Source of the DNA: Chloroflexota bacterium
Lineage (GTDB): Bacteria > Chloroflexota > Limnocylindria > QHBO01
Assembly: GCA_020848055.1 (NCBI GenBank)
Contig: JADLBB010000278.1
Span: 1-33,649 of the forward strand
Direction of reading: 5' to 3'
DNA length: 33,649 bases
Shown here one piece after another: positions 7,658 to 33,649 of this stretch. Both the position numbers and the translations under genes were made by a program. Each line of letters opens with the position of its first letter. Position 1 is the first letter of the stretch. Below the pieces are notes generated by a model that did no database searches, was not told the origin of the DNA, and saw only the letters and a program-made list of their open reading frames with translations.

Positions 7658-8542
7658 ATGAGTGCGCTCGTCCCGAGCCGGAGCCGCCTGTACTTGGCCA
7701 TGGAGCGGCTGCTGCTGGTGTACCTCGCCGCCATCGCGCTGATCATGGTGCTCGGCGGCTATCGGATGACGCCCGACGTGTTCTTCGTCTTCGCCGGCAT
7801 CGCGGCGCTGCTGATGGGCCGCGGCTTCGCGTTCGTCCGGGACTGGTTCCCGCTGGTGGCGATCTTCCTCGCCTGGCAGACCATGCGCGGGATCGCCTGG
7901 CAGGCGGGCTTCACGGTCCAGTCGGATGCGCTGATCGCGGTCGAGCGCGCGATCCACCTCGGCGCGGTACCCACGGTTGTACTCCAGGACGCGCTGCGCG
8001 GGCCGGGCATCTCGCCGCTCGATGTATTCCTGGCCACGGTGTACCACGCCCACTTCCTGCTCCCACTGGCCCTCGGCTTCCTGCTGTGGCTCAGCTCGCG
8101 GCGGCTGTTCTATCGCTACATGGCGGTCCTGCTGGTCGTGTCGATCGTGCAGTTCGTCGTCGCGCTCCTGATGCCTGCCGCCCCGCCGCGCTTCGCCTAC
8201 CAGTTCGGTGAGGATCTCGGTGTCGCCGACGTGAGCCTCGAGGTCACCCAGGCATTCGGCTGGGGCGGGCTGAGCTGGGCGTACGCGAACATGATCGGCA
8301 ACCCGTATGCGGCGTTCCCTTCGCTCCACGCGGCCTACCCGGTCATCGCTCTGCTCACCGGGCGGCAGCGCTGGCCGTGGCTGACCTGGCCGTTCGTGAT
8401 CTACACCGCGACGGTCTGGTTCGCGATCGCGTACCTCGGCCACCACTACCTGATCGACGCCTACGCGGGCGCACTGCTGGCGCTCGGCGTATGGTGGGCC
8501 ATCGGCCGGTGGTTTATCCGGGATACACCACATCCTCGCTGA
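7658..8542 (+). CDS. PAP2-superfamily membrane phosphatase / Aur1-Ipt1-like (PAP2_3)
   Basis: Multi-TM; PAAPPRF ... NPYAAFPSLHAAYPVIAL ... YLGHHYLIDAYAG matches PAP2 C2 and C3 motifs. Confidence 0.85.
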   Translation: MSALVPSRSRLYLAMERLLLVYLAAIALIMVLGGYRMTPDVFFVFAGIAALLMGRGFAFVRDWFPLVAIFLAWQTMRGIAWQAGFTVQSDALIAVERAIHLGAVPTVVLQDALRGPGISPLDVFLATVYHAHFLLPLALGFLLWLSSRRLFYRYMAVLLVVSIVQFVVALLMPAAPPRFAYQFGEDLGVADVSLEVTQAFGWGGLSWAYANMIGNPYAAFPSLHAAYPVIALLTGRQRWPWLTWPFVIYTATVWFAIAYLGHHYLIDAYAGALLALGVWWAIGRWFIRDTPHPR

Positions 8543-9782
8543 ACTCCTCGGTCTCGTCGCTCGACGAGTCCACGCTGATGCCGGTCACCGTGACGGTGAT
8601 CTGGGACCCGGTGTCGGTGAAGGCGAGGATGCCGTATTGCTGTTGCTCGGCCTTGACGATGCCGGAGGTCCACGTCCCGTCGTTCGTCGTGAACCCCGCG
8701 TCGAGGGCCGCGAGCTGCGCGGTGGGAATGCCGCCCGGCGCATTGGTCCCATCGTCGAAGGCGAGGAAGTGGTTGTCGCCGTGGACCATGAACAGGCGAT
8801 CCTTCTTGCCCAGCGTGGTGAACTCGCCGATGAGCTCGTCGCGCTCGGTGGAGAAGCTGCCCCAGGTGATCGAGTCGTCGCCGTTCCACGGCGAGCCGCA
8901 GAAGATGACGATGCACGGCTCGGTCGCGTTGTCCACGATGTCGAGCGCCCACGCCTTCTGCGTCGCTCCCAGCATCGTCTTGGAGCTGTTGTCGGTCGAG
9001 CCATTGGTCGAGCGGTACGAGCGAACGTCGAGGATGATGAAGCGCACCCGGCCGATGACGTAGGTGTGGTAGATGCCCTCATCGTCGGGCAGGGTCCAGT
9101 GCGGGACGTGGGTGCGATACACCGCCTGAGCGGCGGGCTTCGAGGCGGACCCGGCGTGCGAGTCGTTGGGGCCGAAGTCGTGATCGTCCCAGTGGTAGTC
9201 CATCCAGCCCTGCTCGTGCAGCAGCCGCTGCCTGGAGGCCGCCATCACGTCGTTGTAGGCGTTGCGGAACGACGTCTGGTTGTTCGAGCCGATGTCGCGG
9301 TAGTGGCGGTCGCCCATGTGCACGCCGCCGATCAGCTCTCCGGACTCCAGGCGCGCGCGGATGACATCGAAGGTCGGCGCATTGCTCACGTCGTCGTCCA
9401 CGTACTCGCCGCCGGAATGGCCGGCGCACGAGGCCGCCCAGATGGCGAAGTCGTATGCCGTGCCCACGGTCGGGAAGGTGCGGAACGTGCCGGTCACGTC
9501 GGACCCGGCGAAGCCGTAGTAGTAGCGCGTGTCGGGCGACAGGGCGGGCAGGTCGAACTTCCACACGTCGTCGCTGCCCTCGGTGCCGACGACGGTCGAG
9601 AAGCCGGACAGGTCGGAGCTGGTCGAGTAGCGCAGCGTGACGGCCGAGGCGTCGGTCGATCGCGCGAGCACCGTGGCCGCGGAGTCCGAGACGTTGCCGG
9701 CCCACACCCATGAGACGGTGATGGCCGGGGGCTCGACCGGGGTGTAGCCGGCCTGGCCCCCGGAGTGGCCCCAGCGTCTCAC
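8514..9782 (-). CDS. PhoD-like metallophosphatase/phosphodiesterase with FnIII-like N-terminus
   Basis: GTG start at 9782 (GTGA overlap with upstream stop); WAASCAG, GGVHMGDRHYRDI, MDYHWDDHDFGPNDS, VHGDNHFLAFDDG motifs. Confidence 0.8.
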   Translation of the reverse strand: MRRWGHSGGQAGYTPVEPPAITVSWVWAGNVSDSAATVLARSTDASAVTLRYSTSSDLSGFSTVVGTEGSDDVWKFDLPALSPDTRYYYGFAGSDVTGTFRTFPTVGTAYDFAIWAASCAGHSGGEYVDDDVSNAPTFDVIRARLESGELIGGVHMGDRHYRDIGSNNQTSFRNAYNDVMAASRQRLLHEQGWMDYHWDDHDFGPNDSHAGSASKPAAQAVYRTHVPHWTLPDDEGIYHTYVIGRVRFIILDVRSYRSTNGSTDNSSKTMLGATQKAWALDIVDNATEPCIVIFCGSPWNGDDSITWGSFSTERDELIGEFTTLGKKDRLFMVHGDNHFLAFDDGTNAPGGIPTAQLAALDAGFTTNDGTWTSGIVKAEQQQYGILAFTDTGSQITVTVTGISVDSSSDETEEFSEDVVYPG

Positions 9783-10642
9783 GCCGACAGCGGGAAGGGA
9801 TCGATCGCCAGCGCCGTGCCCTCGCGGAACCACGGCACCGCGATCGTAGTCCGGTTGCCCATCGTCGCGGCGCAGGTCGCGAACAGCCACACGTTGTTGG
9901 CCGCGGTGCTCATCGTCTTCGCCCCGATGAACGACCACGAGAAGCCGTCGCGCGAGGCGAACGCGCGATAGATAAGACCCGATCGGTCGATTCGCAGGAA
10001 CCATCCGCTCATCGCCGTCATGCCCGTCCCGGTTTCGCCGAGCACGTTGCTGCCATCCCAACCGATGAGCCGGATCTGGTTGCTCGTCTCGGTGTCGAGG
10101 TGCACGCCTATCGTCTGGCCGGTGGTCCCGGCATACGGCCTGCCGTCGTTGTCGTTGACGGCGATGCCGATGTGCGACTCGTTGTTCGTAGAGGGCAGGT
10201 CGAAGGCCGTCGAGATGTAGGTGACGATGCACTTCCCGTCAGGCAGGGTGTAGTCCTGCTTGAGCTCCACCGAATCGCCGGACGAGGTACCGATCATCAT
10301 CAGCAGCCAGCCGGCGCGCGTGGCCACGTCGTAGATACCGGCCCCGCTGCCGGCCATGAGCGACGCCGTGCCCGACGACCCATCGACGGCGGTGAATGGG
10401 CTGATGCTGCCGGCGAACTCGGCGTCACAGCCGCCGGCCGGCGCCGGTGAGTTGAGGAGGTCCGGGATGGTCAGGCCCCCACCACCACTCGGCGCGTACT
10501 CCAGCGCCGTCGCTCCCGAGTTGACCTTGAGAATCTGGCCGGCCGTGCCGATGGCAAGCCGTGACGGTGCGCCCGATGCCCCGCCCTGGATGATGTCACC
10601 GGCGGCGGTCATCGGGTTTTTCATGAGCGGTACGTCGGCCAT
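9779..10642 (-). CDS. Tail fibre / receptor-binding-like structural protein
   Basis: MKNPMTAAGDIIQGGASGAPSRLAIGTAGQILKVNSGATALEYAP fibre-type N-terminus; RBS AGGAGG; position after tail hub. Confidence 0.7.
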   Translation of the reverse strand: MADVPLMKNPMTAAGDIIQGGASGAPSRLAIGTAGQILKVNSGATALEYAPSGGGGLTIPDLLNSPAPAGGCDAEFAGSISPFTAVDGSSGTASLMAGSGAGIYDVATRAGWLLMMIGTSSGDSVELKQDYTLPDGKCIVTYISTAFDLPSTNNESHIGIAVNDNDGRPYAGTTGQTIGVHLDTETSNQIRLIGWDGSNVLGETGTGMTAMSGWFLRIDRSGLIYRAFASRDGFSWSFIGAKTMSTAANNVWLFATCAATMGNRTTIAVPWFREGTALAIDPFPLSA

Positions 10643-13438: not shown

Positions 13439-13885
13439 CTACGAACCCGAGCCGGAGGTATCCCAGTCGGGCGATTCGTACGACTCGAAGACCACCGTGC
13501 ACTCGGCGAACTCCGGCACCACCGGGCGCTCGTACTGGCCGAAGGCCCGGCAGTCCAGCGTGCGCACCGAGCCGTCCTCGAGGGTCTCGACCAGATTGCC
13601 GTGGTTCGTGGGCTGGAAGCGCGTCTCGAAGTCGGTGAGGTAGGTGCGCAGCGAGCTGCGCGGATCCAGAGCTGCCGGGTCAGCTTGGACCATGCCGACG
13701 TAGAAGATGCGCCGGCGGTGCAGGCGCCGCGGCCGGGCGAAGACGCCCGGGACCTGGGCCGGCGTCTGATCCTCGCCGATGTACTCCAGCTCCTCGTGGT
13801 CGTGCTGCAGGAAGATGCCCTGGGTGGGGCTGGCGTTCAGCCCGAAGCTGTTCCAGGTCGAGTCGATGACGACGACGCCGCTCAT
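13439..13885 (-). CDS. Distal-tail-like protein
   Basis: 148 aa located between tape measure and tail hub; position-based call. Confidence 0.5.
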   Translation of the reverse strand: MSGVVVIDSTWNSFGLNASPTQGIFLQHDHEELEYIGEDQTPAQVPGVFARPRRLHRRRIFYVGMVQADPAALDPRSSLRTYLTDFETRFQPTNHGNLVETLEDGSVRTLDCRAFGQYERPVVPEFAECTVVFESYESPDWDTSGSGS

Positions 13886-16214: not shown

Positions 16215-16648
16215 AAGGCGGCCGCCAGCACCACGAACAGCCCGGTGATCAGCTGCGGCGCCGTCGCGTTGGCACGGATCCAGTCGTCGTCGGGCAGCAT
16301 GCCATCGACGTCGTACGCGCGCAGCAGCTCCAGCTGCAACGCCGGCATGCCCTGCAGGAAGGCCACCACCACCAGCGGGTTCGCCTCGAGCGACAGGCCG
16401 CCCAGCGTCTCGTCCATGCGGCGCTGGAAGGTCGCCGTCCACTTCTCGTTATCCTCGATGGCCAGCACGCGCAGCTGGACCTCGAGATCGCCGAGGGCGA
16501 GGACGGCGCGCCTGGCGAAGATGTCGTCCAGGGTCCGCTCGGGGAGCATCGCGCGCAGCAGGCGCGCCACACCGCCGGGCCCGGCCGAGGGGATGGGGGA
16601 GGGCGGGAGAGCGGCCGGAGCCGCCCCCCGCTTCTGACCGGAGGCCAT
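16076..16648 (-). CDS. Tail assembly chaperone (upstream frame)
   Basis: MASGQKRGAAPAALPPSPIPSAG...RTLDDIFARRAVLALGDLEVQLRVLAIEDNEKW; between major tail protein and TMP; TGATG coupling. Confidence 0.75.
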   Translation of the reverse strand: MASGQKRGAAPAALPPSPIPSAGPGGVARLLRAMLPERTLDDIFARRAVLALGDLEVQLRVLAIEDNEKWTATFQRRMDETLGGLSLEANPLVVVAFLQGMPALQLELLRAYDVDGMLPDDDWIRANATAPQLITGLFVVLAAAFPLAVILLRLALDNADVRTLLQVSLRQSMSGAPANGAGARRTSGVS

Positions 16649-17178
16649 CAGGATCCCGCGGCCGTGACGATGATGCGGTGCGGCGAGCGCGCCGTCGGTG
16701 ACGCGGCCCACTTCGAGTGGTACTCGCCACGCGGCGACATCATGTTGCCGTCCGACGCGGTGTAGCTGATGTTGCCCTGGTTGATCGCGTTGTCAGCCAG
16801 GAACTTGAACTCCTTGCCGTCGAGGCCGGGGACCACGATCGCGTAATCCTTGAAGGCCGACGTCGGCAGGCGGCGGGTGCCGTCCCAGTCGATCGTCGTC
16901 TCGTCGCCGGCGACGGCGGACGACGAGCCGGCCCACAGCAGGGCCAGCACCGCGGCGCTGATCTCCGGCGTCGTGCAGGCCAGCACCGCCTCTTCGCGGC
17001 GCTTGTACTGCGTGCCGACCAGCATGCCGGCGATGCCGTTCAGGTTGTCGGGCTCGAAGAGCTCCTGGTTGACGGTGAACTCGTTGTCGTCGGCGGTCGC
17101 GCCGACGCTCGCCTCGTCCACCTCGAGATCGCCCGCGCCAACGACGAGGTTGGCGGGGGTCGATGCAGAGATCGCCAT
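16648..17178 (-). CDS. Major tail protein
   Basis: MAISASTPANLVVGAGDLEVDEASVGATADDNEFTVNQELFEPDNLNGIAGMLVG...; position upstream of chaperones. Confidence 0.8.
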   Translation of the reverse strand: MAISASTPANLVVGAGDLEVDEASVGATADDNEFTVNQELFEPDNLNGIAGMLVGTQYKRREEAVLACTTPEISAAVLALLWAGSSSAVAGDETTIDWDGTRRLPTSAFKDYAIVVPGLDGKEFKFLADNAINQGNISYTASDGNMMSPRGEYHSKWAASPTARSPHRIIVTAAGS

Positions 17179-17622: not shown

Positions 17623-18075
17623 CTACGCCACGACCTGGGTCGTGGCGATGGCTTGAACTACGAATCGCTCCAGTGGTTGACCGGTGTCCGGGTCGGTGTC
17701 CTGCTCGCCCCCGCCTTCCTCGAGGGTCTGGTAGATGCCGAGCCCGTTGGCATGTGTGCGTGGCCCGGCGCGGTGCAGCGCGTTTGAGCACGCCCAGCGC
17801 AGCTCGGCCGCCTTGCGTCGATCGACGCCGTAGCAGGCGACGCCGAGGGTGACCGTCTGCACCGGCAGGCTGCGATGGCGCGGGCTGTCGAGGCGGGTGA
17901 CGATCACGAAGTTGTGCGCGTACTTGCGCCGGCCGTCGTCGAACTGCTCCCAGGCCGCGTCGCCCGGTGCCGGCTCGACGCCGCGCACGCGCTGTCCGAC
18001 GAGGGCGGCGACCGCCGCGTCGTCACGCAGCTCGACGATGATCCGGGGCAGGACGTCGGGAACGGCGAGGGTCAC
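17623..18075 (-). CDS. Tail terminator-like protein
   Basis: DVLPRIIVELRDDAAVAALVGQRVRGVEP...; position and pattern. Confidence 0.65.
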   Translation of the reverse strand: MTLAVPDVLPRIIVELRDDAAVAALVGQRVRGVEPAPGDAAWEQFDDGRRKYAHNFVIVTRLDSPRHRSLPVQTVTLGVACYGVDRRKAAELRWACSNALHRAGPRTHANGLGIYQTLEEGGGEQDTDPDTGQPLERFVVQAIATTQVVA

Positions 18076-18500
18076 GCGATCCTCCGCAGCCGAGCCTGGG
18101 TCGCCGGTCGCATCAGCTCCGACGTACGTGGCAGCACGCGGTTCATGGCTGGCGTGAAGAACGGCTGGGCCGGATGGTTCACCGTCCCCAGCTCCTGGAA
18201 CCGCCCAGGGAATCCGAAACCGGCGATGATCTGGATCCGCTGCGTGCCGCGCACCCGGAACGTCCGGGGCTTCTTCGGCTGCTTGCCGTCGAGACCGCCG
18301 CCGCCGATCTTCTTGTCGCCCACGTAGCCGATCCAGCCGCCGTTCGTGACGAGCCCGGCCCCGAACGGGGTGGCGTCCGGCGGATCCGCCTCGCGCACGA
18401 CCGCCTCGCCCACGGCGAGTGCACCGTCAGCGACGGCGAGCCGGACCTCGTCGAGGGCGGCGCGGTTCATGACCACGCGCGCGCTAGGCTTGCGGGCCAT
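18072..18500 (-). CDS. HK97-gp10-like neck protein
   Basis: MARKPSARVVMNRAALDEVRLAVADGALAVGEAVVREA...RFQELGTVNHPAQPFFTPAMNR. Confidence 0.75.
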   Translation of the reverse strand: MARKPSARVVMNRAALDEVRLAVADGALAVGEAVVREADPPDATPFGAGLVTNGGWIGYVGDKKIGGGGLDGKQPKKPRTFRVRGTQRIQIIAGFGFPGRFQELGTVNHPAQPFFTPAMNRVLPRTSELMRPATQARLRRIA

Positions 18501-18798
18501 CGCCCTCCCCCGAACCGGCATCAGGAACTGCGTACGCGGTCTCTACGAGCTCCGGGTGCTCGGCGGCGAACTCAGCCACGACCTGGGCGGCGCGGCGTGA
18601 TGCCGGCCGTCTGGGCGCCTCCGGCTTCGGGAAGCACTCGCCGCACACCGAGTAGCGCCTGCCGATGACAGCGCCGAACACCTCGTCCAGCGTCCGGTAG
18701 CGGGGGCCTCGAGGGGCATGGTCGGCGTAGCGCGCGTGGACGACGTCCTCGCTGACCATGTAGCCGGTGCGCGAGTCGGGAATGATCTGCCTAGGCAC
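18484..18798 (-). CDS. Hypothetical protein
   Basis: 104 aa; CGEC motif; overlaps neighbours. Confidence 0.55.
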   Translation of the reverse strand: MPRQIIPDSRTGYMVSEDVVHARYADHAPRGPRYRTLDEVFGAVIGRRYSVCGECFPKPEAPRRPASRRAAQVVAEFAAEHPELVETAYAVPDAGSGEGDGPQA

Positions 18799-19015
18799 CT
18801 GAAACCTCCTGCGGGATGAGCGAGATCGAGAGGACGTAACCGTCAGGCACGTCGATGCACACGCGCCGCGGCGTCGCCGGCATCGGCTCGGCCGCCGGCT
18901 CGGCGTAGTCCTGGCACGGGCAGCGCGTGACGCGGCAGGCTCCGACCTTGCCGTCGGTCTCCGACTGGTGCGCCTGCAGCTCGTGGACGCAGACGACGCA
19001 CCGCGTATCGGTCAT
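18791..19015 (-). CDS. Small Cys-rich protein
   Basis: CVVCVHELQAHQSETDGKVGACRVTRCPCQDY. Confidence 0.6.
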   Translation of the reverse strand: MTDTRCVVCVHELQAHQSETDGKVGACRVTRCPCQDYAEPAAEPMPATPRRVCIDVPDGYVLSISLIPQEVSGA

Positions 19016-19992
19016 GCCGCCACCTCGCTTCGCTGCTCCAGCCAGCCGGTGAGCGACGCTGCCGCTCGGCGTGATGCGTCGCCACGATGGGCGTACACGC
19101 GCCGGACTGATGCGCGCCGCAGGCGGCGCTGCTCCGGTCGATCCTCAAGGGCCAGGGCGATGGCAGCGCCGAGATCCGCGCCGACGTCGACCTGGATCCC
19201 GACGCTGGCCTCGCGCCAGAAGCGCAGGCCGTGCTCGACATCGCGCCGGTAGGCGGCCGCGTTGAGGACGACCACCGGGCGGTCGGTGGCGGCGAACTCG
19301 TAAAGCGTCGAGACGCCGTCGCACACGTAGGCCGCGGCGACCTGCAGGACCTGGTCGAAGGTCGGGATGAACTCGAGGCGATGGCGCCGGGCCCACGGTT
19401 CGATGCGCGGCGCCGCCTTCGGGTGGCCGTGGATCGCCAGCCGGAAGCGGGCGTCGTCGCGCAGCGCGAGGACCGCGCCGGCGAAGTCGTCCCAGGCCGA
19501 CGTCGTCTCAGGCTGGCTGGCGTTGCCGCCCCAGTGAAAGCTGACGACCACGATAGGCGGCGACGAGCGGAAGTGGATCGGCGGTCGGTCGTTCTTCGGG
19601 CACCCGACCACGGCGACCTGCGCTCGCGGGTAGGCCGCCTGCCAGCGCCGACCCGCTACCTGGTTCGGCACCAGGAACAGCTCGACGTCGTCGCAGCCGA
19701 TGCCGCCCGCGTAGGCGGGGTGATCGTCGCTGAACGACTGGCCGATGCCGTGCTCGATGCGGGCGATGCGCTCGTAGCCGAACTTGCGCGCACGCTTATG
19801 GTCGCCCCAGCTGGCGACGAGGACTGCGTCGCTGATCGGGTGACCGCGGCGGATCCCGAGCCGGGCAGCCGTGGCGGCCTGGTGCGCGGGGATCACGAAC
19901 GCGCCGCGCACGCGCTGCGGCAGCTGCTGCCAGATCGGTGCGAGGTGGTCGGCGAAGTGCGGCTCGCTGGCCAGCAGGTCGATGGTCGTCAC
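19012..19992 (-). CDS. GT-B-fold / CDP-glycerol glycerophosphotransferase-like protein
   Basis: GTG start at 19992 (GTGA overlap). IEHGIGQSF, VVGCPKNDRPP, VVSFHWGGNAS, LAIHGHPKAAPRIEPW, VCDGVSTLYEFAATDRPVVVLNAAAYRRDVEHG. Confidence 0.65.
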   Translation of the reverse strand: MTTIDLLASEPHFADHLAPIWQQLPQRVRGAFVIPAHQAATAARLGIRRGHPISDAVLVASWGDHKRARKFGYERIARIEHGIGQSFSDDHPAYAGGIGCDDVELFLVPNQVAGRRWQAAYPRAQVAVVGCPKNDRPPIHFRSSPPIVVVSFHWGGNASQPETTSAWDDFAGAVLALRDDARFRLAIHGHPKAAPRIEPWARRHRLEFIPTFDQVLQVAAAYVCDGVSTLYEFAATDRPVVVLNAAAYRRDVEHGLRFWREASVGIQVDVGADLGAAIALALEDRPEQRRLRRASVRRVYAHRGDASRRAAASLTGWLEQRSEVAA

Positions 19993-20648
19993 GCCGCCAG
20001 CTCCTGCCAGCGCTCGAAGTCGCCGGGCTTGTCGAAGTCCTCGGTGCGGTCGTTGATCTCGACCATCACGTCGGCATAGAAGCGATGCTTGCGCACCTGG
20101 GCCCCGAGCGCCCCGCCCAGGATGCGTGCCGCCTCCCACGTACCAGAGCGCCGGGTCAGCCCGCGATTCATGAGCTGCACGCTGGTGAGCAGTGCCTGCT
20201 GGTACAGGCCGTTGTGCTCCGGCCACCACGACACTGCGAAGACCTCGCCGTACGGGCAGCCGGTGATGGCGGACGGTCCGAAGCGACAGAAGAGTCGCCA
20301 CTCGCGTGGCGCGTGGCCGACGATCGTGTCCATGGCGGCGTCGGTGTAGTACGTGTCGCCGAAGAGCTGGACGGTGCGATCGTCGTCGGACCACCAGGCG
20401 ACGTTGTTCAGGGCGTGGTCGCCCTTGCCGTTGCTCGGCGTCGACGGCGGGACGACGCACACCGCGTCGAGACCGGCGTAGGTCCCCGGGCGCGGCTCGG
20501 TGACGACGACGTCGACCACGTCGCGCGCGCGCAGCTGGCGCACCATCCGCTCGAGCAGCGTCTCGCCGTCGACCTGCAGCAGCTGCTTGCGCACGCCGAA
20601 CGCGTCGTACATGTCGTCGGGGCCGGCGGCCATCACGATCGCCCTCAT
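19989..20648 (-). CDS. Nucleotidyltransferase (NTP-transferase, sugar-phosphate/MobA-IspD-like)
   Basis: MRAIVMAAGPDDMY...RKQLLQVDGETLLERMVRQLR...LFGDTYYTD...VEINDRTEDFDKPGDFERW. Confidence 0.75.
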   Translation of the reverse strand: MRAIVMAAGPDDMYDAFGVRKQLLQVDGETLLERMVRQLRARDVVDVVVTEPRPGTYAGLDAVCVVPPSTPSNGKGDHALNNVAWWSDDDRTVQLFGDTYYTDAAMDTIVGHAPREWRLFCRFGPSAITGCPYGEVFAVSWWPEHNGLYQQALLTSVQLMNRGLTRRSGTWEAARILGGALGAQVRKHRFYADVMVEINDRTEDFDKPGDFERWQELAA

Positions 20649-21376
20649 GCCCGCACCCACGTCGCGTCGATCGACTTCGTCATCGGCAGCAGGCCCGTCG
20701 AGTCGAAGGCCTCGGGCGGCTTGACCGCCTGCTTCTCCTTGCGCGCGATCGCCTCGAAGCCCTGTGCCTCGATGGCATTGACCAGAGCCGTGGCAGCGGC
20801 CCGCTGATCGAGCACCTGCTCGAGCGTCGGGCGCACCCGGTGCAGCACGAGGTCGGCGCGGACGTGGATCTCCATAGCCACCACCCGCACGTAGTCGGGC
20901 AGCTGCCACAGCTCGGGCATGCCGTACTCGCCGAACTCGACGTCGCACTTGATCACCGCCGGGCGGTGAGCGCTAAGCAGATCGCCGAGGGTGACGACCG
21001 GGACGGTGGTGGCGGTGCGCCCGGGCTCGTGGCCGAGCGTCGTGTTCAGGAACGGGCGATCGGGCCGGCTGTAGAGCTGAGCCTCGCCGGCGGCCGGGCC
21101 GACCACAGCGGCGATGATCTCGGCCGGGAAGCCTTCCAGGTTGCGGCGCAGGACGGCGAGGTTCGCCGGATCCGGCTCGACTGCGATGACCTTCGCCGCG
21201 CCGCGCTCGAGCATCAGCCGGCTGGCCGCACCGATGTGCGCACCCAGGTCCAGCACGACGTCGCCCGGCTCGATCGGCACCGGCGCGTACACGGCGCGGA
21301 CCTCGTCGATGATGAAGCGATCCATAGCGGTCGGGCGGAACCACAGCCCGGTCGCCGAGTCCTGGCGCAGCTTCAT
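20645..21376 (-). CDS. FkbM-family methyltransferase
   Basis: VVLDLGAHIGAASRLMLERGAAKVIAVEPDPANLAVLRRNL SAM-binding motif; VIKCDVEFGEYGMPELW. Confidence 0.85.
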   Translation of the reverse strand: MKLRQDSATGLWFRPTAMDRFIIDEVRAVYAPVPIEPGDVVLDLGAHIGAASRLMLERGAAKVIAVEPDPANLAVLRRNLEGFPAEIIAAVVGPAAGEAQLYSRPDRPFLNTTLGHEPGRTATTVPVVTLGDLLSAHRPAVIKCDVEFGEYGMPELWQLPDYVRVVAMEIHVRADLVLHRVRPTLEQVLDQRAAATALVNAIEAQGFEAIARKEKQAVKPPEAFDSTGLLPMTKSIDATWVRA

Positions 21377-22089
21377 GTCAGGGCCCCCCAGTTGATCGCG
21401 AAGCGCTGGCGGATGCGATCCGACAACGGGATCCGAAACGACCCGCTGAAGTCATCGCTGATCGCGTCGACGTGGCGCAGGTACAGCCAGCCGATATCGA
21501 CCGCGACGACGTCGACCGGTGCCACCGAAGCGGCCCGCCGGTGGCCGAAGTCGTACACGCACAGGTCGTCACCGGCAGGCGCGAACAGGGTCTGCATCAG
21601 GCGGGTCGCATCGCGGCACGGCGCCCAGGTCTGCCCGTCGGTCCGGATCCCCGACATCGCGACGAAGATGCGCCGCTGCCGGCCGTGCCTGGCGGCCGCC
21701 TGGATCCGGGCGAGGTAGTCGGTGGTGATGGCGTCGTCGTCGTCGAGCCGCATCTGCAGTCGAGGTCCGGGCGTCATCGCCGAACGCCAGTCAGCGAAGT
21801 ACGCCGACGCCGCCAGCTGCTGAATGTACGAGCCGACGCGGTTCGACCAGGGCACCCGCACCGGGCGCGTCGTGCAGTCGATGGCCACGCCGTCGAGCTC
21901 GCGGATGATCGCCTCGCGCTCGGCTCGTAGTGGATCCTGCGGATGCAGCGCGACGACCCAGGTGAAGGGTGCCGTCTGCGACGCCAGCGATCGGGCCGTC
22001 ACCTCGCGCAGCAGCTCGAGCCGCCGGCGGTTCAGATCGATGTGGACGTCGGGCGCAAACGCGCTGCGCGTCAGGACATAGTGGTTCAT
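21373..22089 (-). CDS. Putative rhamnosyltransferase-like glycosyltransferase
   Basis: MNHYVLTRSAF...RRRLELLREVTARSLASQTAPFTWVVALHPQDP...LQMRLDDDDAITTDYLARI (DxD-type motif). Confidence 0.75.
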   Translation of the reverse strand: MNHYVLTRSAFAPDVHIDLNRRRLELLREVTARSLASQTAPFTWVVALHPQDPLRAEREAIIRELDGVAIDCTTRPVRVPWSNRVGSYIQQLAASAYFADWRSAMTPGPRLQMRLDDDDAITTDYLARIQAAARHGRQRRIFVAMSGIRTDGQTWAPCRDATRLMQTLFAPAGDDLCVYDFGHRRAASVAPVDVVAVDIGWLYLRHVDAISDDFSGSFRIPLSDRIRQRFAINWGALT

Positions 22090-22676
22090 GCCTGGAAGAC
22101 CCACGCCGTGCGGTGCTCGGGATGTCCGATGAACGACGGCCCGACTCGGTGGTCGACCAGGGACGGCAGCGCGAACAGCGCCTCCTCGTCGTTGGCCCGC
22201 AGCCAGAGCTTCATGCGGTCGTCGTCGCCGAGGGTCGGGTCGAGCTCGTCGCAGAAGGCGATCAGGTCGGCGATGCGGTGGGTGGGCACGACGACGCCGG
22301 GACCGAGGATGTTGTTGTGGGCGAAGACGCCGCGGCCGTGCCGCAACGCCACGTTGGCCCGTGCGATCGCCTCGGGCCAGGTGCGCTTGTGCCGGTAGAA
22401 CAACCCGTACACGCGCTCGCCTCGCTGGATCAGCTGCTCGAGGTGGTCGACGAAGTCGCTGCACGGGATCGCGTCGTCCTGGATGACGCAGTGAAACGGC
22501 GCATCGGTGTGCAACAGCAGCGCCGCGCGCTTCGTTCGCCAGCACGGCCCGCGGTCGCGCTTCGTGGCGTACGGCGGCTCGGCCCACGCGACCGGCACGT
22601 CGCCGAGCTGGGCCTGCAGCTCCGCGACCCAGGCGGCTCGTTGCGGATGCGCCATGATCGCGATCGAGACGTTCAC
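22086..22676 (-). CDS. GT25-like glycosyltransferase
   Basis: MNVSIAIMAHPQRAAWVAELQAQLGDVPVAW...CVIQDDAIPCSDFVDHLEQ...GDDDRMKLWL. Confidence 0.7.
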   Translation of the reverse strand: MNVSIAIMAHPQRAAWVAELQAQLGDVPVAWAEPPYATKRDRGPCWRTKRAALLLHTDAPFHCVIQDDAIPCSDFVDHLEQLIQRGERVYGLFYRHKRTWPEAIARANVALRHGRGVFAHNNILGPGVVVPTHRIADLIAFCDELDPTLGDDDRMKLWLRANDEEALFALPSLVDHRVGPSFIGHPEHRTAWVFQA

Positions 22677-23101
22677 GAGCCGTCTCCGTCCGGCGCGGCG
22701 CCGGCGTAGCCCAGCTGCGGGTTGCTCACCAGGCGCGCGTCGATCTGCAGGTGGTGCCCGGCGCCGGCCGCGTCGCCGAGGCCGACGATGTCGTACGTCG
22801 CCTCCGGCAGGTCCGGATCGGCCGGGCAGGCATCGGGGTTGTGATAGATCGCGTCGGAGCTGCGCAGCGCCACGCCCTGCAGGTAGATGCGCGTGTCAGA
22901 CACCGCCACGCCGGCCTCGTGCAGGGCCGCGATCTCGCGCATGCCGCGGGGCTGGATCCCCGCCGCGACCGCGGTGGCGATCGTGTCGGTCTCGCTCTCC
23001 GGCTGGCCGTAGTCGTCCAGGATGGCGTCGCCGAGCTGGTCGAGGGTGGGCACCTGGCGCAGGACACTGACGCGGTGGTTCAGGAACCGGAGGCCGATCA
23101 T
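22673..23101 (-). CDS. Head closure / head-tail adaptor protein
   Basis: MIGLRFLNHRVSVLRQVPTLDQLGDAILDDYGQPESETDTIATAVAAGIQPRGMRE; position. Confidence 0.7.
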   Translation of the reverse strand: MIGLRFLNHRVSVLRQVPTLDQLGDAILDDYGQPESETDTIATAVAAGIQPRGMREIAALHEAGVAVSDTRIYLQGVALRSSDAIYHNPDACPADPDLPEATYDIVGLGDAAGAGHHLQIDARLVSNPQLGYAGAAPDGDGS

Positions 23102-23935: not shown

Positions 23936-25393
23936 TCAGGAGCCGGCGCCGATGGTCAGGAGGCGGAAGGCGTTGATCGTGGTGAGCCCGGTGTCGTTCC
24001 GCCAGCGGGCGTAGATGCCGCGACGGCCGAGCGGTCGGCCATCGCCGTTGAAGACCATCGGGATGAACTCGGTCGAGAGACCGAGCCGATCCACGATGAC
24101 GAAGTGGTTGAAGTCGCCGAAGAGCAGCGGCTCCGAATCGTTCGTCGTGGTCTTGTCCATGTTGTTGCTGATCCGCGCCCGGTAGCCGCGCAGCGTCCCC
24201 GACATCGGGTCGTAGATGCTGTTGGCCGGCTGGCCAGCGGTCCCGAAGGCTCGGGCCAGCTGGTAGATCTTCCGAGCAGCCAGCCACTGGGCGCGGCTGA
24301 TGAACCGGTCGCCGAGATCGCCCTCGACGCTGTCGACGTCGGTCAGCGCGAAGGCGTTCGGAGCTGCCGACGGCACGACGCTCGCGCCGCCCGAAAGGGC
24401 GAACACGATGCCGAGCGGCTCGCCGGAGCCGGAGCCGTTGACGAACTTCTCGGCCTCGAGGACGTTCTTCGCGTCGGCGATCAGTCGACCGAGCTCGGAG
24501 GCGATGGCCGCCGGGCCATAGTCCTCGCTGTACTCGGCGCTGAAGTCGACCGACACGTGGGCGCGGATCGGGGTGATCGACGGCGAGGCGACGTCCGAGG
24601 GCGCGGCGTCGGAGGCGGCGGCGGTCTCGACCGCGTACGTCGCGGTCACGCCGCCGGTCGTGACCGGCGACCACTGCTTCGTGGTGATCGTCTCGACGCG
24701 GGCCATGCCGTCGCGGAGCGGGTTGACCGCGCCGTCGGTGGTGAGCACGAACGTCGGGTCGATCGTGACCGGGATGGCCACGCCGCCGTTGGCGTCGCTG
24801 TACGTCTGCAGCGCGGCCTGGAGGCGCGAGGGCACTGCCTGCAGACCACCGGAGACGTAGCGCGCCCACGCCTCCTGGTAGATCGGCGCCGTGGTGCCGA
24901 TGACGCGGCGCGAGACGACGCCGTACTCCTCGTCCTTGTGCTTCTCGACGAGATCGGCCAGGCGGGCGCGCGCCTTGTCCGTGTCGGGCGCGACGGGGAG
25001 GGATGCCTTCTCGATGATGCGCATCGCGCCGTCGCGATACGCCTGCGGGAGGTCCTCGACGTCGCGGACCTGCTGCCGGTAGGCCGACAGGTCGAAGATG
25101 TTGTCGGGGGCCGAGATGACGTTCGGCGCGTTGAAGCGCGCCTCGCCGACGGTCTCGACGCCGTTCGGCTTCTGGGTGGCTTCGGCCACGGCGGCCTGGC
25201 GGAGCTCGAGCTCCTTGACGATGCCGGCGAGCTCCTCACGCTGGGCGAGGATGCCCTCGAACTCGGCGAGCTGCTCCGCGCTGAACGGGCGCCCGTCGGC
25301 CTCGGACTCCAGCTCAGCGAGGCGGGCCGCCAGCTCGGCGTCGGCCGAGCGGTGGGCGTCGAGCCCTCGCAGGCTCTTGAGGTCGATGGTCAC
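23936..25393 (-). CDS. HK97-family major capsid protein
   Basis: N-terminal coiled-coil delta domain, then SAYRQQVRDVEDLPQAYRDGAMRIIEKA...AVNPLRDGMARVETITTKQWSPVTTGGVTATYAVET. Confidence 0.93.
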   Translation of the reverse strand: MTIDLKSLRGLDAHRSADAELAARLAELESEADGRPFSAEQLAEFEGILAQREELAGIVKELELRQAAVAEATQKPNGVETVGEARFNAPNVISAPDNIFDLSAYRQQVRDVEDLPQAYRDGAMRIIEKASLPVAPDTDKARARLADLVEKHKDEEYGVVSRRVIGTTAPIYQEAWARYVSGGLQAVPSRLQAALQTYSDANGGVAIPVTIDPTFVLTTDGAVNPLRDGMARVETITTKQWSPVTTGGVTATYAVETAAASDAAPSDVASPSITPIRAHVSVDFSAEYSEDYGPAAIASELGRLIADAKNVLEAEKFVNGSGSGEPLGIVFALSGGASVVPSAAPNAFALTDVDSVEGDLGDRFISRAQWLAARKIYQLARAFGTAGQPANSIYDPMSGTLRGYRARISNNMDKTTTNDSEPLLFGDFNHFVIVDRLGLSTEFIPMVFNGDGRPLGRRGIYARWRNDTGLTTINAFRLLTIGAGS

Positions 25394-32196: not shown

Positions 32197-32490
32197 TCAG
32201 GCCGCCACAGCCTCCGGAGCGAGCCGTCGCTGACCGGGCCGGCCGGCAGGCGCGTGATACATCCCACGTCGTCGAGCGCCCCGCGTTCCGAGCGGCTTCG
32301 AGGGTGACGGCGGCCGCGGCCGGAGCACGTTCGTCTGCAGCCAGAGCACGACGTCGTCGAGGGTCATGGGCTCCTCGGGGCCGTCGTCGCGGAGCACCGC
32401 CAGGGCCTCGATCAGCAGCGTCGGCGTCAGCTGCCCGTCGACCAGGCGCGGCATCTTCGGCGAGGTGGGCCAGCGTCGGCGCGCGCTCAT
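32197..32490 (-). CDS. Hypothetical protein downstream of integrase
   Basis: MSARRRWPTSPKMPRLVDGQLTPTLLIEALAVLRDDGPEEPMTLDDVVLWLQ...; ATGA overlap with integrase stop. Confidence 0.55.
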   Translation of the reverse strand: MSARRRWPTSPKMPRLVDGQLTPTLLIEALAVLRDDGPEEPMTLDDVVLWLQTNVLRPRPPSPSKPLGTRGARRRGMYHAPAGRPGQRRLAPEAVAA

Positions 32491-33649
32491 GCCGACCTCG
32501 CGGCAGCCGGGCGCAGCGGCGTCGGGGTTCGAACCGTGACGGTGATCGGTCCGACTCCTCTCGCCCCGACCACCGTCACAGATTGAGCCCCGACGAGGCC
32601 GACAGCGGCCGGGGTCGGGATGATCGTTAGCTCGCGGCAGCCGAGCGCGTCGACGTGGATGAACAGCTGCTCGGCCAGGCGCCGTCGCTCGTCGGCCCTC
32701 GCCTCGGTCCACATCCGGGCCAGGCTGCGCAGCCAGGGCAGCAGCTCGGGCCAGCGCGCCCCGGCCGGAGGTCCGGAGGTCCGGAGGTGATTCTCCTCGG
32801 TATCGAGCGTCGCCATCGTCGCCTCGAGGCGGGATGCGTCACGGTCGCGGCGGTACCTGGCGAGGGCGCGATCGCGCTCGGCCTCGATGCGCTTCAACGC
32901 CAGCCCATCGGTCAGCGCTGACCTTCTCGAAGAATCGATGGCCGCCGCCTCGGTCAGCTGGCCCGGATCCAGAGCCCACTGCTCGAGCGCAGATCCGATC
33001 GCGCCCTCGTACAGCGCCTGGGCATACGACGTGCCGAGGCTCTTCACGAGCTGGTTCTTCCAGGCCCGGCGACGTCGGGCGGCGGTGAACGCGGCGCACG
33101 GCCGGCGGTGCCGGTAGCGCCCGGTGTCACCGATCAGGCGCTCGCCGCACGCCGCGCAGCGGAGCATCGGCAGCGCATACGTGCGGAACGTCTCGGGCTT
33201 GCCGCCGCGGGTACGCCGGCGCGCACGCTGATCCTGGACGGCCTGCCAGGTGGCGACGTCGACGATCGGCTCCACCGCCGCCGGCGAGCCGTCGCGCAGG
33301 CGGCCGACGTAGATCGGGTTGGTCAGGATCCCGCGGACGGTGTCGATGGGGAGGCCCACCTTCTGAGCCACGCGTCGGTCAGGGGCGCCCGATGCGGCAA
33401 GGTCAAACGCACGACGACAGATCGCTTGGTGTTCGGGATCAGGCTCCAATCGAGGTGGTCGGCCGGCTCGATGCCATCCGAACGGAGGGCGGCCTCCAGG
33501 CTCTCCAAGTCGGCGCCGCTTAGCTGCATAACCCTCACGGATCCGCCGCCCGAGCTTCCGGCTGTAGCTCTCGGCCTCGACGGCCTCGCGGGCCCACTCG
33601 TCCCATCGTTCGTCGTCACTGGTCAGGATCCTCTCGTCTGCGAACAGGA
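32487..33649 (-). CDS. int: Large serine recombinase (integrase), N-terminus truncated by window edge
   Basis: Frame open to the edge: LFADERILTSDDERWDEWAREAVEAESYSRKLGRRIREGYAAKRRRLGEPGGRPPFGWHR, then recombinase domain TVRGILTNPIYVGRLRDG and zinc ribbon LRCAACGERLIG. Confidence 0.92.
   Translation of the reverse strand, partial: LFADERILTSDDERWDEWAREAVEAESYSRKLGRRIREGYAAKRRRLGEPGGRPPFGWHRAGRPPRLEPDPEHQAICRRAFDLAASGAPDRRVAQKVGLPIDTVRGILTNPIYVGRLRDGSPAAVEPIVDVATWQAVQDQRARRRTRGGKPETFRTYALPMLRCAACGERLIGDTGRYRHRRPCAAFTAARRRRAWKNQLVKSLGTSYAQALYEGAIGSALEQWALDPGQLTEAAAIDSSRRSALTDGLALKRIEAERDRALARYRRDRDASRLEATMATLDTEENHLRTSGPPAGARWPELLPWLRSLARMWTEARADERRRLAEQLFIHVDALGCRELTIIPTPAAVGLVGAQSVTVVGARGVGPITVTVRTPTPLRPAAARSA

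Follow-up and report, generated by a model that had tools for sequence, protein, structure and literature searches.

A glycan gene cassette among the head and tail genes of a phage contig from a Chloroflexota genome, with serine-terminated capsid and tail proteins as predicted acceptors

Gene order and enzymes of the cassette

The stretch of DNA analysed here, hereafter the window, is 33.6 kb long (33,649 nucleotides) and represents one entire contig (C278) of a 2.0 Mb, 294-contig and approximately 85% complete genome assigned to a Chloroflexota bacterium. It carries a set of phage structural genes which, in the order of transcription, comprise the terminase, portal, protease, major capsid protein (MCP), connector and head closure genes, followed by a cassette of five co-directional genes for putative glycan synthesis on the minus strand (22676-19012), by two small open reading frames (ORFs) and by the neck, tail terminator, tail tube and tape measure genes. 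Specifically, the cassette consists of a glycosyltransferase (GT) gene, GT_A, a second GT gene, GT_B, an FkbM-type methyltransferase gene, a nucleotidyltransferase gene (NT) and a gene for a transferase of the GT-B fold, GTB (Table 1). The five ORFs lie where a first-pass annotation of the sequence had placed them, between head closure and neck. Reading each junction confirmed that all the internal ones are ATGA or GTGA: the three after the head closure/GT_A junction are ATGA, NT/GTB is GTGA and GTB is joined to the first small ORF by ATGA. The coupling to head closure, previously given as ATGA, is in fact GTGA. These 4-bp overlaps occur at every cassette junction, as the first-pass annotation had noted, but say little about whether the genes form a special unit, because 19 of the 45 same-strand gene pairs in the window overlap likewise; the idea that they mark such a unit was dropped. 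The GC content of the cassette genes (69-72%; GC3 0.89-0.93) is comparable to that of the adjacent structural genes.

GT_A matched PHROG 854 ('glucosyltransferase', E 9e-19) and showed no Pfam match, so that the proposed 'GT25-like' label is based only on a motif. Searches with phmmer retrieved phiAsp2 pas35 (2e-22), Firecracker gp36 (4e-11), Sbash gp88 (3e-9) and Che8 gp110 (4e-9), placing GT_A with the GTs of the Che8 gp110 and Corndog gp38 type; weak matches extended to 532 phage records, mostly from mycobacteriophages. The motifs DDA.P..DF and PSLVDH are common to GT_A and its phage homologues. The rhamnosyltransferase-like and FkbM assignments of the first-pass annotation were borne out. 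GT_B is rhamnosyltransferase-like (Pfam PF11316, Rhamno_transf, E 1.3e-11, above the curated cut-off), with an R.DDDD motif invariant in the alignment of its relatives. The methyltransferase belongs to the FkbM family (TIGR01444, E 1.4e-17, 64 bits against a cut-off of 37.7; PF05050 also matched) and contains the S-adenosylmethionine motif VVLDLGAHIG. NT passed the cut-off of NTP_transf_3 (PF12804) narrowly (E 1.2e-6, 29.2 bits against 27), matched PHROG 33187 (E 4e-32) and resembles IspD over its first 50 residues only; counterparts 31-35% identical are found in nine Streptomyces phages, among them Rooney gp32 (35%).

GTB had been described as a CDP-glycerol-transferase-like GT-B protein. The fold is supported by an AlphaFold2 model with a mean pLDDT of 92.6, which shows a compact GT-B architecture and which Foldseek, run against the PDB and BFVD, assigns to the GT-B superfamily; its best PDB matches, at a TM of about 0.7, are UDP-GlcNAc 2-epimerases and further GT-B proteins, so that the comparison identifies the fold class but not the donor. 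The family label holds as a resemblance: the nearest sequence profile is, weakly, that of the CDP-glycerol/ribitol-phosphate transferases, and the window protein scores below the cut-off of PF04464 (Glyphos_transf; E 0.0019, 17.7 bits against 22.1). Among its relatives, 23 of 32 match PF04464 (CDP-glycerol glycerophosphotransferase) at E<=0.01, with a best value of 7e-11, and the motifs HG, HP, D-x-x-S and VEHGLRFW are conserved in 34 homologues. GTB shares the HP and D-x-S-S region with TagF/TarL; unlike TarL (583 aa chain), it is much shorter, and its closest PDB folds differ. No clear transmembrane segment was detected in the five cassette proteins (maximum KD19 1.59), and the genes sit among structural genes, at variance with lysogenic gtr serotype-conversion systems, which have a flippase and a GT in the membrane, encoded beside the integration site.

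Table 1. Positions of the cassette genes and of the structural genes discussed in the text
Feature	Coordinates	Strand	Basis
GT_A, glycosyltransferase, 196 aa, GTG start	22086..22676	-	PHROG 854, phmmer
GT_B, rhamnosyltransferase-like glycosyltransferase, 238 aa	21373..22089	-	PF11316
FkbM-family methyltransferase, 243 aa	20645..21376	-	TIGR01444, PF05050
NT, MobA/IspD-like nucleotidyltransferase, 219 aa	19989..20648	-	PF12804, PHROG 33187
GTB, GT-B-fold transferase, distantly CDP-glycerol-phosphotransferase-like, 326 aa	19012..19992	-	motifs, AlphaFold2, Foldseek
Major capsid protein, C-terminus ...IGAGS, acceptor Ser predicted at codon 23941-23939	23936..25393	-	PHROG 10, E 7e-25
Major tail (tube) protein, C-terminus ...TAAGS, acceptor Ser predicted at codon 16653-16651	16648..17178	-	PHROG 885, E 2e-6
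Head closure (Hc1-like), C-terminus ...GDGS, last Ser at codon 22678-22676	22673..23101	-	weak PHROG 25 / PF05521
Protein encoded after tape measure, C-terminus ...SGSGS, possibly also an acceptor	13439..13885	-	
Neck protein (HK97 gp10-like), downstream edge of the insertion slot	18072..18521	-	PHROG 5, E 7e-4
sm1, small ORF, function unassigned, ATGA-coupled to GTB	18791..19015	-	no convincing family match

Related loci and the terminal serine of capsid and tail proteins

A scan of IMG/VR with GTB returned 60 loci (numbered with an L below), 51 of them non-redundant and with a called GTB gene; genes were called with a simple custom finder and glycan genes by HMMs built from clusters, so that singletons were possibly missed. 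A recognised structural gene, always co-directional, lies within eight genes of GTB in 43 of the 51 loci, and a further glycan gene within five genes in 41. The partners vary and include GT2, galactosyltransferase-like and GT4-like enzymes, FkbM and other methyltransferases, a TagD/RfaE-like cytidylyltransferase, a UDP-GlcNAc 4,6-dehydratase-like enzyme, a PIG-L deacetylase and a pyruvyl transferase. The cytidylyltransferase (k45) accompanies GTB in the cassettes of L010, L013, L021 and L068, which suggests a CDP- or ADP-activated donor there. In window-type phages (L008, L013, L021, L024, L068) the slot between head closure and neck, or tail terminator, is again the one occupied, and in other GTB phages the cassette is found elsewhere among the head genes. 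Single-sequence scans of IMG/VR with NT and GT_B yielded no loci. An alignment of GT_B recovered 33, of which 31 were new; 21 of these 31 carry GTB, many between terminase/portal and capsid. One lineage (L231, L232, L234, L235, L241, L244, L245) has GTB and a rhamnosyltransferase-like gene directly between portal-like and capsid-like genes, and its presumed capsids mostly end in AS, GS or TS. A scan with the window MCP gave three relatives, and both of those with enough downstream sequence carry glycan genes after head closure. A detectable GT_A is rare among the GTB-bearing relatives, most of which have none. GTB does not appear to be a host gene in the 150 relatives of the host genome that were searched, since these gave three weak partial matches only. 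A search of 85k genomes with one conserved GTB motif found four loci. Locus L081, from the cultured bacterium Halalkalibacter JCM 9152, has a GTB homologue called as two pieces. All together, these data suggest that virion glycosylation is widespread in uncultured phages.

In the window, the MCP and the major tail (tube) protein (MTP) end in IGAGS and TAAGS, respectively, each with a terminal hydroxyl residue. Across the GTB-bearing loci, 41 of 44 MCPs and MTPs end in Ser, preceded by Gly or Ala in 37, and they belong to six sequence families (PHROG 10, 777, 1328 and 792, window-type MTP and window-type MCP). Of the 1029 other proteins encoded in these loci, 146 (14%) have a terminal Ser, and so do 6 of 173 cassette enzymes; the difference between 41/44 and 146/1029 corresponds to p=1e-29, uncorrected for relatedness. 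The Ser is invariant in seven MTP homologues from GTB-bearing loci. Selection acts on the residue and not on a nucleotide motif, because these ends show four different codons for Ser and each of the three stops. Terminal Ser was also seen in 8 of 11 head closure homologues from the fetched loci and in all four homologues of the protein encoded after the tape measure gene.

Comparable ends occur in cultured phages with GT genes: NKTGS and YSDGS (MCP and MTP) in Che8, where only one further protein of 17 late proteins examined ends in Ser; LVGS and KGDS in Firecracker (cluster O); ETAS and EAGS in Brujita; ETAS and GDGS in Sbash; SALS and TAGS in Rooney. In a set of loci selected by their protease, blind to GTs, an MCP ending in [GA]S was found in four of nine loci with glycan genes and in none of 33 without them (p=0.001).

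The same protease search provided near sisters without the cassette, a comparison proposed in the first-pass annotation. In L095, L096 and L100, whose MCPs are 48-55% identical to that of the window, head closure overlaps neck directly, with no cassette between the two genes. The window MCP has three extra residues and ends in GS, whereas the MCPs of the sisters, and of L097, end in KVQ; the MTPs of L095, L096 and L100 end in EIG, MSA and AVG. The cultured MCP relatives Eyre, Kita and Mcklovin likewise have no genes in the head closure/neck slot. Homologues without a recognised cassette show MCP ends TTV (Eyre, Kita, Mcklovin) and TTA (Shagrat), and MTP ends GTP, TTP, ETP and AIV (Eyre, Kita, Mcklovin and Shagrat, respectively); for Mcklovin, Jflix2, REQ1 and prophiGD90-1, partial reads underlie the scoring as GT-free. 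Since the serine tag follows the presence of the cassette and is absent from the cassette-free sisters, the terminal serine of MCP and MTP is likely to be the glycan acceptor.

Relation to known phage glycosylation systems

Virion glycosylation has so far been demonstrated in a few mycobacteriophages. Che8, Corndog and Myrna are reported to carry glycans on their virion proteins (PMC12363180, PMC12619734, PMC11600133). Of these papers, PMC12619734 locates the glycans at the C-terminal ends of the capsid and tail tube subunits, and PMC11600133 reports modification of capsid and tail tube in cluster O. In cluster O, an O-methyltransferase gene and three GT genes lie between portal and protease, and capsid modification was proposed in 2015 (PMC4351075).

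The first-pass annotation regarded the cassette as unusual; this is overstated, since a methyltransferase with GTs in a structural operon was already known from cluster O. Like the window, cluster O phages (Corndog, Firecracker) have these genes overlapping within the structural operon, the last GT homologous to GT_A and serine-terminated MCP and MTP. Unlike the window, their slot is portal/protease instead of head closure/neck, their methyltransferase is annotated as O-methyltransferase and gave no match to the FkbM cluster model, and they have neither NT nor GTB. In Che8 and cluster F (gp108-110), gp110 is homologous to GT_A and both MCP and MTP end in GS; here, however, the GT genes are located close to the right end of the genome and apart from the structural genes, and no methyltransferase or NT is annotated beside them. 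The combination of nucleotide activation, transfer and methylation also has a counterpart: a GT-NT-methyltransferase run (genes 31, 32 and 33) is deposited for Streptomyces phage Rooney and occurs in its relatives, with overlapping genes, the NT counterpart described above, an FkbM-like methyltransferase and MCP and MTP ending in Ser. The Rooney genes differ in that they follow tail and lysis genes, the GT (gene 31) is of another family (k4), and no GT_A, GT_B or GTB was detected among the three.

The arrangement in the window is most likely a variant of the known mycobacteriophage virion glycosylation. What is new with respect to it is the different slot, the added NT, the distinct GT-B family, the broad spread in uncultured phages and the sequence rule for the acceptor. 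We found no paper that describes a C-terminal serine as a glycosylation signal of phage capsids; the original glycosylation paper lay outside the search, and may already state such a rule.

Proposed role of the cassette and alternative explanations

We consider it probable, judging from the genes and their order, the GT_A homology and the protein ends, that the cassette builds a small, probably methyl-capped O-glycan and attaches it, with late expression, to the C-terminal Ser of MCP and MTP. The GT_A homology, the recurrence of the cassette among the head genes of unrelated phages and the C-terminal Ser tags on MCP and MTP independently support the proposal of the first-pass annotation that a possibly O-methylated glycan is placed on the virion and not on the lysogen surface. 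For the donor, the order of transfer, the initiating GT and the glycan itself, we infer the following scheme. Late transcription would yield the enzymes together with the structural proteins; NT would turn a sugar or polyol phosphate into a nucleotide donor; GT_A, GT_B and GTB would transfer residues, the latter two extending the chain; and FkbM would O-methylate it and may terminate it. GT_A is the favoured initiator on the terminal Ser, because PMC12363180 describes its homologues, the GTs Che8 gp110 and Corndog gp38, as essential to the glycosylation of the capsid. The initiator may differ between lineages, and GTB may take the first step in relatives without GT_A, given the rarity of GT_A among GTB-bearing phages. 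Head closure and one other tail-region protein are perhaps acceptors as well.

Several observations weigh against this proposal. The MCPs of L068 and L069 end in V or I despite the cassette, although the MTP of L068 still ends in S; the MCP of REQ1 ends in KAS, with no cassette in the stretch examined; and many HK97-type capsids of phages without a cassette end in RS. The sequences compared are related, so that the p-values overstate their independence. The k11 capsid family carries the tag almost throughout, and its link with detected glycan genes is not significant, partly because the loci are incomplete; among the loci scored there as GT-negative, L205, L211 and L212 carry GT_A homologues and L209 has GTB further upstream. 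Because RS ends abound where glycan genes are absent, the initial sign of any terminal Ser was replaced by a small residue followed by Ser. The tail tube families A2 and A3 were set aside, their alignments being too divergent for a collection scan.

The untagged MCPs of L068 and L069, which have a large cassette, and the Ser ends of some cassette-free phages would also fit a virion decorated at internal Ser/Thr residues or on other tail proteins, with Ser ends that serve assembly and co-occur with the cassette by chance. We regard this as improbable: the tag is found repeatedly in capsid and tail families that are unrelated to each other, and the glycans of Che8 and cluster O, whose proteins end in GS or DS, are reported to lie at the capsid and tail tube C-termini (PMC12619734, PMC11600133). 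A similarly low probability applies to an alteration of the host envelope (a cell-wall glycan or a teichoic-acid-like polymer), late or in the lysogen, that would block superinfection. The distant relationship of GTB to the CDP-glycerol/ribitol-phosphate transferases of teichoic acid synthesis and the partial serine integrase of a probably temperate phage are compatible with it; neither a flippase nor any other polytopic membrane protein was found, the five enzymes have no clear transmembrane segment, 43 of the 51 relatives have the genes embedded in a structural setting, and the presence of the C-terminal tags goes with that of the cassette. Glycosylation of phage DNA bases against restriction, for which phage GTs that hypermodify DNA offer a precedent (literature cited in PMC12619734), is very unlikely, since no base hydroxymethylase was found among the window proteins scanned, the cassettes accompany head and not replication genes, and the Ser ends would be left unexplained.

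For virion glycosylation, these data offer a simple sequence sign, namely glycan genes together with small-residue-Ser ends on MCP and MTP, and predict which residue is the acceptor. More tentatively, and with considerable doubt, we suggest that tailed phages with several unrelated capsid and tail families convergently gained the short (Gly/Ala)-Ser tag of their main virion proteins as a portable glycosylation site for a largely phage-confined set of transferases, namely GTB and exchangeable partners. If so, differing chemistries (pyruvyl, methyl, deacetyl, dehydratase, CDP-/NDP-activating) would give every phage its own particle coat, and the first residue under GTB could be a phospho-polyol instead of a sugar.

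Other features of the window include the two small ORFs between GTB and neck: sm1 has several cysteines in its first half, and the second (18484-18798, minus strand) is without a convincing family match. The C-terminal part of an integrase of the serine-recombinase type (PHROG 95) lies near the contig end, at 32487-33449; this points to a probably temperate phage on an incomplete contig. Another gene (8514-10232), downstream of the one for a fibre-like protein, matches PHROG 24476 ('phosphodiesterase', 3e-76) and a hydrolase PHROG, and its product is possibly a receptor- or glycan-cleaving tail enzyme. At the other contig end, positions 1-190 hold a repeat array whose 12-base units (gacggctccacg and variants) are nearly identical.

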